Shown here piece after piece: positions 26,660 through 48,404 of a stretch of DNA of 64,000 nucleotides. The stretch's first letter is position 1. Each line of letters begins with the position of its first letter. The notes beneath the pieces were generated by a model. That model searched no databases. It saw only the letters and a list, made by a program, of their open reading frames with translations, and was not told where the DNA came from. The translations under genes were made by a program, and so were the position numbers. Source of the stretch: Deltaproteobacteria bacterium (GTDB taxonomy: Bacteria > Desulfobacterota > Binatia > Binatales > Binataceae); NCBI GenBank assembly GCA_021780225.1, contig JAJXZF010000029.1, forward strand, positions 1 through 64,000. Direction: 5' to 3'.

Positions 26660-27871
26660 ATGGCGGGAGCGTTAGCCAGCCTGAAAATTGTCGAGATCGG
26701 CGAACTGGCGTCGGCGCCGTATGCGTCGAAGCTGATGGCCGACATGGGCGCCGAGGTGATCAAAATCGAGCGGCCCGGCGCGGGCGATCGGGCGCGGACG
26801 CGCGGGCCGTTCCCCGGCGGCGCGCCGCATCCCGATAAAAGCGGATTGTTCCTTTACCTTAACGCCAACAAGCTCGGCGTCACGCTCGATATCGCGCGGC
26901 CGGAAGGGATGGAGCTGCTCGAACGGCTCGTGGCGCAGGCCGATGTCCTGATTCACAACGTATGGCCGCCCGAGATGGATCGCGCCGGATTGAGTTTCGA
27001 GCGCATGAGCAAGATCAATCCGCGGCTGGTGATGACCTCGATCACCCCTTTCGGATTGACGGGACCAAAGCGGAATCTGCGCGCCGAGGAGTTGACGATC
27101 TGGTCGGCGGGCGGCGTCTGCGTGCTCAACGGCGCCGGCCCGGAGCATCCGGAGTTGCCGCCGCTGAAAACCTTCGGCAGCCAGGCGGGATATCAGGGCG
27201 GCGTCCACGGCGCGGTCGCAACGATGGGCGCGGTGCTCGCGGCGCTGCGCGACGGCGCGGGCCAGCAGATCGACGTATCCTGCCAGGAGGCGATCGCGTC
27301 CCAGCTCGAAATGACCTTCGAGTACTGGCCGTATATGAAAATGATTGCGACCCGGCTCGGCAAGAAACCGCTGCAGCCGGTCGAATCGATGCAGTGCAAG
27401 GACGGCGGCTGGATCTATTTGTGCTGCATCGAGGAGCATCAGTGGAAGGCGTTCGTCGATTTGATGGGTAATCCCGATTGGGCCGGCGAGGAGATTTTTT
27501 CCGATCGATTGAAGCGCGGCGACAACTGGGAAGCGCTCAAGATTTTTCTGGAAGAGTACGTGAGCCGGCAGACCGTGCTGGATTTGTATAAAAAGGCGCA
27601 GGCGCGGCGGATTCCGTTCGCTCCGGTTTCGACGATGGGCGACCTGCTCAATTCCGAGCATCTGAAGGCGCGCGGTTTTTTTGTCGAGATTGCGCATCCC
27701 GTGGCCGGCGCCTGCAAATTTCCGGGCGCGCCGCTCAAGTATTCCGCGACGCCATGGGAATTGCGGACGCCCGCGCCGACGCTGGGGCAGCATAATCAGG
27801 AAATCTTCGGCGGCCGGCTCGGACTTTCCGCCGCGCGGCTCGACGAACTTAAACGAACGGATGTGATTTAG
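26660..27871 (+). CDS. CaiB/BaiF-type CoA transferase, subunit lacking the catalytic Asp
   Basis: 403 residues, family III CoA transferase. LKIVEIGELASAPYASKLMADMGAEVIKIERP and the GVHGAVATMGAVLAALRDGAGQQIDVS region are diagnostic. The family's catalytic Asp sits four residues before the G of the G-(V/M)-H segment. Here that position is Gly (AGYQGGVHG) and no Asp is nearby, so it may be a non-catalytic partner of the next gene, which keeps the Asp. ATG 26660 follows GGAGAG. The stop abuts the next ATG with no gap. Confidence 0.88.
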   Translation: MAGALASLKIVEIGELASAPYASKLMADMGAEVIKIERPGAGDRARTRGPFPGGAPHPDKSGLFLYLNANKLGVTLDIARPEGMELLERLVAQADVLIHNVWPPEMDRAGLSFERMSKINPRLVMTSITPFGLTGPKRNLRAEELTIWSAGGVCVLNGAGPEHPELPPLKTFGSQAGYQGGVHGAVATMGAVLAALRDGAGQQIDVSCQEAIASQLEMTFEYWPYMKMIATRLGKKPLQPVESMQCKDGGWIYLCCIEEHQWKAFVDLMGNPDWAGEEIFSDRLKRGDNWEALKIFLEEYVSRQTVLDLYKKAQARRIPFAPVSTMGDLLNSEHLKARGFFVEIAHPVAGACKFPGAPLKYSATPWELRTPAPTLGQHNQEIFGGRLGLSAARLDELKRTDVI

Positions 27872-29119
27872 ATGGCGCGACCACCGCTCGACGGCGTGCG
27901 TATCGCCGATTTTACCTGGGTCTGGGCGGGTCCCTACTGCACCCTGCAACTCGCTCATCTGGGCGCGGACGTGATTCGCATCGAAACCAAGACGCGGCCG
28001 TGCGTGACGCGGCTTCTTCCGCCATGGCCCGGCGGCAAGCCGGTCGGTTTGAACCGCTCGGGCTACTTCAATCAGTACAATCAGGGCAAACGGTCGCTGA
28101 CGCTCAACTTCAAGGATCCGGAAGCGCACGAGGTCGCGCGGCGGCTAATCGCTAAGAGCGACGTGGTCGTCAATAATTTCGCTCACGGCGTGATGGACCG
28201 GATGGGCTTCGGCTATGAGGCCGTCAAGAAAATCCGTCCGGACATCATCATGGTCTCGCTGACCGGCTACGGCGATACCGGTCCGTATCGCGATTATATT
28301 GCTTACGGTCCCGCGCAGGTGCCGCTGTCGGGTCTGTCGGCGCTGACCGGATATCGCGGCTGGCCGCCGATGCACGCGGGATTCAGTTACGCCGATCCCA
28401 ACGCCGGCGTTCACGGCGCGTTCGCGATTCTGACCGCGCTGTTCTATCGGGCCAAGACCGGGGAGGGGCAATATATTGATATGAGCCAGTGGGAGTGCGC
28501 GATGGACCTGCTGGCGGAAGGCCTGCTCGAATACACGATGAACGGCTGCGAGCCGGAGCGGGCCGGCAACGAGGATCCGTGGATGGCGCCGCACGGAATC
28601 TATCGATGCCTCGATCGGCCCGAACCAGTGATGGGCGTGACGGTCGATCAGTGGATCGCGATCGCAATCGCCGACGACGCCGAGTTCGCACGTTTCGCCG
28701 CGGCGATCGGCCAACCCGAGCTCGCGTCGGACGCCAGATATGCGACTTTCGCCGCGCGCAAGGCGCATGAAGAAGATCTCAACGGCCTGATTTCCGCGTG
28801 GACGGCGGCGCGGCGCGCCGACGATGTCGCCCGTTCGCTCCAGCAGGCCGGAATCGCCGCCGCGGTCGTTGCCGACAGCCGTTACCTTTCCGAAGAAGAT
28901 GAACACATCAACGGCCGCGATTACTTTGTCCGCCGCGAACATCCGGAAGTCGGGACCATGCAACATTGCGGGATACCATGGAAGATGAGCCGGACCGCGA
29001 CCAGCGTGCGCGCGGCGGCGCCCGGTATCGGCCAGCATACTGATGAGGTCCTCAGCGGCTTGCTCGGCTACAGCGCCGCCGACGTTTCGCGTCTGCGCGC
29101 CCAAGGCGCTCTGGAGTAA
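27872..29119 (+). CDS. CaiB/BaiF-type CoA transferase, subunit with the catalytic Asp
   Basis: 415 residues. VRIADFTWVWAGPYCTLQLAHLGADVIRIE opens the fold. The catalytic segment YADPNAGVHGAF has Asp in the expected place, followed by TGEGQYIDMSQWE. It starts directly after the previous stop. A back-to-back pair of unequal CoA transferases suggests a hetero-oligomeric enzyme, as in the anaerobic benzylsuccinate CoA transferase. That parallel is inference, and the acid substrate is unknown. Confidence 0.9.
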   Translation: MARPPLDGVRIADFTWVWAGPYCTLQLAHLGADVIRIETKTRPCVTRLLPPWPGGKPVGLNRSGYFNQYNQGKRSLTLNFKDPEAHEVARRLIAKSDVVVNNFAHGVMDRMGFGYEAVKKIRPDIIMVSLTGYGDTGPYRDYIAYGPAQVPLSGLSALTGYRGWPPMHAGFSYADPNAGVHGAFAILTALFYRAKTGEGQYIDMSQWECAMDLLAEGLLEYTMNGCEPERAGNEDPWMAPHGIYRCLDRPEPVMGVTVDQWIAIAIADDAEFARFAAAIGQPELASDARYATFAARKAHEEDLNGLISAWTAARRADDVARSLQQAGIAAAVVADSRYLSEEDEHINGRDYFVRREHPEVGTMQHCGIPWKMSRTATSVRAAAPGIGQHTDEVLSGLLGYSAADVSRLRAQGALE

Positions 29120-29182: not shown

Positions 29183-30025
29183 ATGGACGAATTTAAAGTA
29201 TTACTTGATAATCTCGCTTTCCCTGAAGGTCCGCGCTGGCGCGACGGGAAACTCTATCTTTCCGACATGCATGCGCATCAGGTGCTGGCTGTCACGCTCG
29301 ACGGAAAGGCCGCGGTCGTTGCCGAGGTTCCGACCTGGCCGTCGGGCTTGGGATGGCTTCCGGATGGCCGCATGCTGATCGTCTCGATGACCGATCGCAA
29401 GTTGCTGCGTCAGGATGCCGGCGGGCTTAAGGTGCATGCGGATTTGAGCAAGCTCGCGTCGTTCCACTGCAACGACATGGTGACCGATGGGGCGGGCCGT
29501 TCTTACGTCGGAAATTTCGGCTACGACCTGCTGACCGGTGCGCCGCAAAAGCCGGCGGAGATCGTGTTGGTCGAACCGGACGGACGCGCGCGCGTCGCCG
29601 CGACCGGCCTCGACTTTCCGAACGGCGCGGTGGTGACGGCTGACGGGCGCACGCTGGTCGTCGCCGAATCGATGGGCCATCGGTTGACCGCATTCAGCGT
29701 CGCCGCGGACGGCGCGCTTTCCAACCGTCGCGTATGGGCTGAACTTGGCGAAGCTGTGCCCGACGGCATCGCGCTCGACGCCGACGGCGCCATCTGGGTC
29801 GCCTCGCCGTTCACTCGGGAGTTGCTGCGTGTTCGCGACGGCGGCGAAATCGCGGAACGGCACAAGTTCGAGGCGATGCCGATCGCTTGCGCGCTCGGCG
29901 GTCCCGGCCGGCGAACGCTTTTCGTGCTGACTTCGGAAAGCATCAATCCGGACGAATGCCGGGCGAAGCGCAGCGCCAAGGTATGGACGCGCGAGGTTGC
30001 GATCGGCGGCGCAGGATGGCCGTAG
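29183..30025 (+). CDS. SMP-30/gluconolactonase-like protein
   Basis: 280 residues, six-bladed beta-propeller hydrolase. Metal ligands of the SMP-30 family are visible: Glu in FPEGPRW, Asn in LDFPNGAVV, and Asp in VPDGIALDADGAIWVA. Members hydrolyse lactones. It lies 63 bp after the CoA-transferase pair on the same strand and may share its pathway. Start ATG 29183. Confidence 0.88.
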   Translation: MDEFKVLLDNLAFPEGPRWRDGKLYLSDMHAHQVLAVTLDGKAAVVAEVPTWPSGLGWLPDGRMLIVSMTDRKLLRQDAGGLKVHADLSKLASFHCNDMVTDGAGRSYVGNFGYDLLTGAPQKPAEIVLVEPDGRARVAATGLDFPNGAVVTADGRTLVVAESMGHRLTAFSVAADGALSNRRVWAELGEAVPDGIALDADGAIWVASPFTRELLRVRDGGEIAERHKFEAMPIACALGGPGRRTLFVLTSESINPDECRAKRSAKVWTREVAIGGAGWP

Positions 30026-47050: not shown

Positions 47051-47246
47051 TCGCGCCTGAGCATCGGGCGGATTGAGCGGGCGGTCGCGTTGGCGATCGC
47101 CCGCTTCGCATTGGCGCCGCGCCAGCCTCGCGCCCCGCGATCGGTTGCCATCAATCGGCCTGTTCATTAGCGTTGCCGGAGAGCCCGGGCGAATTTCGCT
47201 CGGCGCGCCGGCTCAGTTGCCGGAAAGTCTTCAGGAGAATTCAGCA

Positions 47247-48404
47247 ATGAAAGTTTCGCTTTTTTACCTTCCTTCGGTGGGCAGCCGTGCGGAAATCGAG
47301 CGCGGGATGGTTGGGTTGCGCGGCGAGGTTTACGACCGGATGCTGCGCGAGGTCACCGAGCAGGCGCAGTTGGCCGACGATCTGGGTTACGACTCGATCA
47401 GCTTTACCGAGCATCATTTCCACGCCGAAGGATTCGAGATGTCGAACAATCCGGTGATGCTCGATCTGTATATCGGGATGCAGACCAAGCGTTTGCGCGT
47501 CGGCCAGCTCGGAATCGTGCTGCCGGCCAACAACCCGATCCGGGTGGCCGAGGATATCGCGATGCTCGACCACATGACGGGCGGACGCGCCAACGCCGGC
47601 TTCGCGCGCGGCTATCAGCGGCGATGGGTCGATATCATGGCGCAGCAGACCCACGGCATCCACGGCGCGCAGCCCCATCAGCACGACGCGATCGACGACG
47701 CGAATCGGGCGGCGTTCGAGGAGTGCTACCGGATTATCAAGCAGGCGTGGACCGAGGAGATGCTGTCATACGAGGGCCGCTACTGGCGCGTGCCGCCCGG
47801 CGAAACGCCGTGGAATATCGAGGCGACTCAGAAATGGGGCCGGGGCGTTGAAAACGGAATCGTGAAGGCGGTCAGCGTGGTGCCGAAACCGGTGCAGAAA
47901 CCGCATCCGCCGATCTTTCAGCCCTTCGCATCATCGGAGCGGAGCATCCGCTGGTGCGGAGAAGAGGGCGTGACCGCCGTCATCCCGCCGCTGTTTCCCG
48001 ACTACGAAAAGCATCTGGCGGAACTTTACGCCTCGGTCTCGCACAAACCGGTGGGCGAGGGCTTCGGCGTGCTGCGCGACGTGATTATCGCGGACACCGA
48101 CGACGAGGCGCGCGACATGTGGCGCCAGAGCGGCTACTTCTGCGGGCACGAATGGTTCGAGCCGTTCGGCTTCTCCAAAGCGATGCAGGATCCCAAGACC
48201 GGCGAAACCCCCGATATCTTCGAGAACAGCCTCGCGCTGGTCGGATCGATCGATACGGTCACGCGCCAGCTTGAGCGTTTGCAGAAGCGGCTGCCGCTCA
48301 AGTGGATATTCGCGTGGATGTACAACGGGCTGATTCCGCACGAGCGCAACCTCAAGATCCTCGAGCAGTTCTGGACCAAGGTCGTGCCGCGCGTCGCCGC
48401 GTAG
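47247..48404 (+). CDS. LLM-class flavin-dependent oxidoreductase
   Basis: 385 residues. Bacterial luciferase-like TIM barrel using reduced FMN or F420: LADDLGYDSISFTEHHFHAEGF, LGIVLPANNPIRVAEDIAMLDHMTGGR and NAGFARGYQ are family signature. EKYWRVPP-like text is present as GRYWRVPPGETPW. Substrate unknown, possibly an alkane, ether or alcohol. Start ATG 47247 after CAGGAGA. The longer frame from 47073 is rejected. Confidence 0.9.
   Translation: MKVSLFYLPSVGSRAEIERGMVGLRGEVYDRMLREVTEQAQLADDLGYDSISFTEHHFHAEGFEMSNNPVMLDLYIGMQTKRLRVGQLGIVLPANNPIRVAEDIAMLDHMTGGRANAGFARGYQRRWVDIMAQQTHGIHGAQPHQHDAIDDANRAAFEECYRIIKQAWTEEMLSYEGRYWRVPPGETPWNIEATQKWGRGVENGIVKAVSVVPKPVQKPHPPIFQPFASSERSIRWCGEEGVTAVIPPLFPDYEKHLAELYASVSHKPVGEGFGVLRDVIIADTDDEARDMWRQSGYFCGHEWFEPFGFSKAMQDPKTGETPDIFENSLALVGSIDTVTRQLERLQKRLPLKWIFAWMYNGLIPHERNLKILEQFWTKVVPRVAA

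Follow-up and report, generated by a model that had tools for sequence, protein, structure and literature searches.

Two adjacent genes for family III CoA transferase subunits lie on the plus strand of the window, that is, the whole 64,000-nucleotide stretch of DNA analyzed here. The upstream gene (26660..27871) encodes P1, an E-type (BbsE-like) subunit of 403 amino acid residues, and the downstream gene (27872..29119) encodes P2, an F-type (BbsF-like) catalytic subunit of 415 residues. Both proteins matched the Pfam family PF02515 (CoA_transf_3) over the full length, P1 with 316 bits (E = 3.8e-94) and P2 with 356 bits (E = 4e-106), the cut-off being 23.3 bits. The TAG stop codon of P1 (27869..27871) is followed directly by the ATG codon of P2, which starts at 27872, and the junction (27869..27874, plus strand) stays in one frame; thus, the zero spacing given in the preliminary description was confirmed. 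Read-through of the TAG codon from P1 into P2 was considered and set aside; other orthologues show TGA or TAA at the junction, or out-of-frame overlaps.

The catalytic position in P1 and P2

The preliminary description stated that only the second protein has the catalytic Asp, and our alignments bear this out. The motif in P2 is A-D175-P-N-A-G-V-H-G and the counterpart in P1 is G177-Y-Q-G-G-V-H-G. Asp175 of P2 (codon 28394..28396, plus strand), the predicted nucleophile, shares the column of the Asp residues of YfdW/Frc and BbsF, and Gly177 of P1 (codon 27188..27190, plus strand; residues counted from 26660) falls in that same column when aligned to BbsF, YfdW, and the 41 family III domains of the same genome. 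We also listed all Asp residues of P1, as another Asp at the catalytic position would have spoken against the description. The list jumps from residue 107 to residue 198, so that there is no nearby Asp able to substitute (residues 108-197 do not include any), and no Asp of P1 aligned with the catalytic column. P1 is therefore a member of family III by descent and fold that lacks the catalytic residue.

The same arrangement was found in close relatives. At the 33 loci with at least 56% identity in which the column was covered, the residue was Gly in 32 and Glu in one, and the downstream partner, present on the contig in 31 of these loci, had Asp in all 31; the 33 loci include near-identical genomes and hence do not represent 33 independent events. 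A 34th locus (L091), a fragment without the catalytic column, is outside this count. The pattern of Gly in P1 and Asp in P2 is not due to chance.

Family III domains in the same genome

The genome that carries P1 and P2 (3.8 Mb) gave 42 matches to PF02515, from which 41 domains were obtained, one of them (C46) partial; a 59-residue fragment below the cut-off was dropped and two fused open reading frames (ORFs) were split. The catalytic column contained Asp in 34 domains and another residue in seven: Gly in P1, Glu in C33 and C36, Tyr in C55 and C72, Trp in C96, and Gly in the N-terminal half of the C115 fusion. All seven are either upstream in a tandem or the N-terminal half of a fusion, and the partner has Asp in each case. 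The chance of all seven falling in the nine first-of-tandem positions, which were defined after the fact, is 1.6e-6.

In terms of the clades described below, this genome contains seven E/F pairs, six of which have a dead (Asp-less) E subunit. The remaining one (C103:23278-25665, locus L035) is an E-F fusion of 801 residues with Asp in both halves, the sole such pair in the genome. Across the seven pairs, the distances within E correlated with the distances within F (r = 0.893; 10 of 5040 permutations were as high).

Another fusion of two family III domains (C115:28111-30345, locus L037) is 776 residues long, with Gly in the N-terminal half and Asp in the C-terminal half. In the tree it sits outside both the E clade and the F clade, and the live/dead arrangement may have arisen separately in it.

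E and F clades among relatives

For the first sample, genome contigs were scanned with P1 and the best 80 of 360 relatives were retained. These best 80 of 360 loci contained 147 family domains, and the closest relatives among them were from Binatota (Binataceae and 'Candidatus Binatus soli') and other Binatia, which makes Binatota the most likely phylum for the organism of the window. Two records labelled as Klebsiella pneumoniae metagenome-assembled genomes (L061 and L062) had Binatota-like copies of P1 (58-59% identical) and are probably mislabelled or from a mixed bin.

A tree of 185 sequences was built after relatives shorter than 330 residues and any sequence shorter than 300 residues had been excluded and three references added. 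The E clade (70 sequences, support 0.996) included P1 and BbsE, and the F clade (70 sequences, support 0.997) included P2 and BbsF, while 45 sequences belonged to neither. The catalytic residue was other than Asp in 60 of the 70 E sequences; it was Asp in all 70 F sequences and in 44 of the 45 others. By locus, 67 E-F pairs were matched, one of which was BbsEF; E was upstream in 60 and F in six of the 66 genomic pairs. In 47 dereplicated pairs, the E distances correlated with the F distances (r = 0.896), a value reached in none of 5000 permutations. This co-divergence could be caused by the genome trees, but the seven pairs within one genome also correlate (r = 0.893, as described above).

For the second sample, we searched 118 genomes of the phylum with a profile built from E sequences. 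The profile matched in 86 of the 118; it also recognizes other family members, so the figure does not give the number of genomes with an E subunit. From the listed matches we chose 35 stretches (mostly the best matches and fused frames) and added a Rhodococcus opacus plasmid locus, which together gave 78 domains, 77 of them of sufficient length. A tree of 262 sequences was built without the catalytic column; in it the E clade had support of 1.0; the node with all F sequences had only 0.352, so the border of F is less certain. The new E sequences (35) included 31 without and four with Asp, and Asp was present in all 34 new F sequences and all eight others. For both samples together, the E position was non-Asp in 91 of 105 sequences, with ten different residues (Gly, Tyr, Glu, Gln, Trp, Ala, Leu, His, Ser, and Pro; 11 types including Asp), and F had Asp in 104 of 104. 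Because 14 of the 105 E sequences carry Asp, its loss is a tendency of the E subunit and not its definition. Changes between Asp and non-Asp on the E tree were weakly clustered (seven, against a mean of 9.5 and a minimum of six in shuffled data).

In the second sample, E and F were joined in one ORF of 765-880 residues in 14 cases. Besides these, a Bordetella petrii isolate has a natural E-F fusion (L113, 4986-7523), in which the E half has Leu and the F half has Asp. A 2598-base gene on a Variovorax plasmid (L162, 3977-6574) is long enough for an E-F fusion, and its E half is 60% identical to that of L113; the gene adjoins those for HMG-CoA lyase, acyl-CoA dehydrogenase, and a MaoC protein. 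In the genome of another relative (L154, G048:C6:34000-46000), two E/F pairs are located inside 12 kb, which suggests local expansion of the pair. These results support a matched pair, as had been proposed from the spacing of the two genes: P1 and P2 belong to the BbsE and BbsF clades, and E/F partners co-diverge, are usually adjacent, and are often fused.

Selection, conservation, and predicted structures

Against four close orthologues, dN/dS was about 0.07, 0.09, 0.09, and 0.17 for P1 and 0.07, 0.08, 0.13, and 0.14 for P2 (in this set, L096 repeats L048). Purifying selection on P1 is about as strong as on P2, and P1 is not decaying. P1 was complete in nearly every close orthologue with a contig spanning the gene; the gene appears to be interrupted in one distant orthologue (L077). 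Sixteen columns were invariant over 48 aligned E sequences, and G42, R46, P50, K71, D248, and G250 of P1 were kept in all 48.

The N-terminal large domains of E and F were equally conserved on average. From the idea of a composite site we had predicted that the small domain would be better conserved in E than in F, and the large domain better in F, and this was not observed: with domain borders transferred approximately, the mean entropy of the small domain was 2.42 in E and 1.93 in F (p = 1e-4). A new guess prompted by this result is that differences in substrate could reside in the E small domain.

An AlphaFold2 model of P1 made from 48 E sequences had a pLDDT of 90.2 and a pTM of 0.87, with Gly177 near the start of a helix (residues 175-198). 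The best fold matches of this model, human SUGCT (Z = 42.2) and BbsE (Z = 41.9), were about tied. A single-chain proxy for P1-P2, modelled from nine sequences, had a pLDDT of 78.2 and a pTM of 0.82, with four stretches below a pLDDT of 50; the model fits a definite packing of the two halves.

Genomic context and substrate

Downstream of P2, a gene for an SMP-30/gluconolactonase-like protein (29183..30025, plus strand; PF08450) was found. Among the best 80 of 360 related loci, 13 had a related gene near P2, and all 13 belonged to the closest loci; in Binataceae the gene possibly shares one transcript with P1 and P2. The region upstream of P1 (22657-26062) contains an operon for an ECF transporter whose S component is of the QueT/riboflavin type, and the T component was near the pair in nine of the same 80 loci. 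A luciferase-like monooxygenase (PF00296) at 47073-48404 is unrelated to the pair.

The SMP-30, Xaa-Pro aminopeptidase, MaoC-like, FlK thioesterase-like, and ECF transporter neighbours of P1 and P2 were kept only in the closest group. In more distant orthologues (L064, L066, and L072), an amidohydrolase was nearby instead, and the neighbours of the other E/F pairs in the same genome had no common theme. We dropped the assignment of a substrate from gene context, since the neighbours vary outside the closest group. No match to PF02901 or PF01228 was found in the genome, which is 96.9% complete, and the controls were detected. As no glycyl radical enzyme, the sign of benzylsuccinate synthase, was found there, the toluene pathway is unlikely from the gene content, and P1 and P2 are probably not its CoA transferase. 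By analogy with BbsEF, the substrate would most probably be a carboxylic acid degraded through CoA esters, and the donor would be succinyl-CoA or a similar compound.

Discussion

The best matches of P1 and P2 among sequences in the Protein Data Bank (PDB) were the two chains of one entry: 9fn0_A (BbsE; 1.7e-49) for P1 and 9fn0_B (BbsF; 1.1e-84) for P2. The Asp of BbsF aligned to Asp175 of P2 counts as residue 178 in chain B, and the title of PDB entry 9FOL includes 'D178-CoA adduct'. BbsE (chain A) has Tyr, residue 171 by the same count, in the catalytic column. Tyr171 of BbsE and Asp178 of BbsF mean that the pattern of P1 and P2 already exists in a solved enzyme. BbsEF, the benzylsuccinate CoA transferase, thus resembles P1/P2 in having two family III subunits with the Asp present in F and absent from E. 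P1 is 31-32% identical to BbsE in structural alignment, although the catalytic column differs (Tyr in BbsE, Gly in P1), and P1/P2 differ from BbsEF in the absence of a detected glycyl radical enzyme from the genome and in their neighbours (the SMP-30 protein, the aminopeptidase, and the ECF transporter).

From the residues, the clades, the gene pairing, the co-divergence, and the selection observed here, we consider that P1 and P2 are the non-catalytic E subunit and the catalytic F subunit, respectively, of a heteromeric CoA transferase that belongs to family III (Frc type) and to the BbsE/BbsF lineage, with a probability of about 0.8. In such an enzyme, Asp175 of P2 would attack the acyl-CoA donor to give an acyl-aspartyl anhydride and then an aspartyl-CoA thioester, from which the CoA would be handed to the acceptor acid. 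We infer a P1-P2 complex with a composite site and half-site catalysis: by analogy, the working site would consist of the large domain of P2 and the small domain of P1, and the pocket on the P1 large domain, which has Gly177, would be unable to form the covalent intermediate, so that each P1-P2 heterodimer would have one working site. The role of P1 would be structural, in completing and shaping the site of P2, possibly with a second binding site. Some E/F pairs may have two working sites, as 14 of the 105 E sequences and the E half of the C103 fusion carry Asp.

The preliminary description had proposed a heteromer with a structural or regulatory first subunit. The heteromer is supported because E/F partners co-diverge and occur as natural fusions, and because P1 and P2 fall in the BbsEF clades; the first subunit may be either structural or regulatory. 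One form of the latter, a catalytic heteromer in which the pocket on the P1 large domain takes an active part in regulation or acceptor binding and is not a scaffold only, is possible but rather unlikely in our view. In the N-terminal large domain, E is on average as conserved as F, perhaps beyond the need of a pure scaffold, but folding and interlocking also explain equal conservation.

That P1 and P2 are two separate homodimers encoded side by side, P2 being a normal transferase and P1 an enzyme that needs no Asp because its CoA chemistry is non-covalent (like that of an isomerase, racemase, or lyase), seems improbable. Racemases share the fold (AMACR was among the fold matches), the solved family III structures listed are as a rule of single-gene enzymes, and P1 has strongly conserved residues of its own, such as the six given above. 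However, E and F co-diverge, are adjacent over very distant genomes, and have been fused repeatedly, and the nearest solved relatives, BbsE and BbsF, make one enzyme. The 11 residue types at the E position, Asp included, also give no sign of a new conserved catalytic residue. It is very improbable that P1 is a functionless duplicate heading for loss. The catalytic residue has been lost and varies freely among relatives, and the distant orthologue L077 looks interrupted, but the low dN/dS (about 0.07-0.17), the full length in nearly all the close orthologues covered, the 16 invariant columns, and the confident predicted fold argue against decay.

Other known enzymes resemble the proposed heteromer in part. 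YfdW/Frc, CaiB, SUGCT, and Mct are like P2 in fold and in the chemistry of Asp175, but they are encoded by one gene and have the Asp in every subunit, whereas P1 lacks it. SmtAB (malate) is a two-subunit family III transferase, and both SmtAB and SptAB (phthalate) are like the enzyme proposed for P1/P2 in being family III enzymes of two subunits. SptAB is named in one report (PMC11659651), and two others describe a composite active site and the chemistry of Asp165 in Mct (PMC9196870, PMC9813914). BbsCD is described, in a title cited by a further report, as a heterotetrameric dehydrogenase with inactive pseudoenzyme subunits (PMC10818641). It shares with the proposed P1-P2 complex the idea of combining an active subunit with an inactive paralogue, but it belongs to the unrelated short-chain dehydrogenase family and has another reaction. 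No paper on the structure of BbsEF or on Asp-less family III subunits was found in a search that covered only a minority of subscription papers.

The live/dead kind of enzyme is known from BbsEF; its frequency, with seven E/F pairs in a genome of 3.8 Mb, is less expected. We tentatively suggest that 'one live, one dead' family III heteromers are a large, old, and expanding subfamily, in which the nucleophile position of E drifts while F is locked to Asp, each pair in this genome probably has its own acid substrate, and the dead half may enable the diversification of substrates via the E small domain. The high variability of this domain fits substrate diversification through E, with the chemistry retained by F.

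CaiB/BaiF proteins abound in the genomes of soil and ocean organisms, their substrates are mostly unassigned, and they are usually annotated gene by gene. If a large share of them work only as E/F pairs in which one subunit is catalytic, either gene alone, expressed or annotated, would mislead. The E/F pairs, with many residues (including Asp) at the E position and with fusions, are a natural series for probing the role of a dead subunit in a dimeric enzyme whose two sites are each shared between the subunits.
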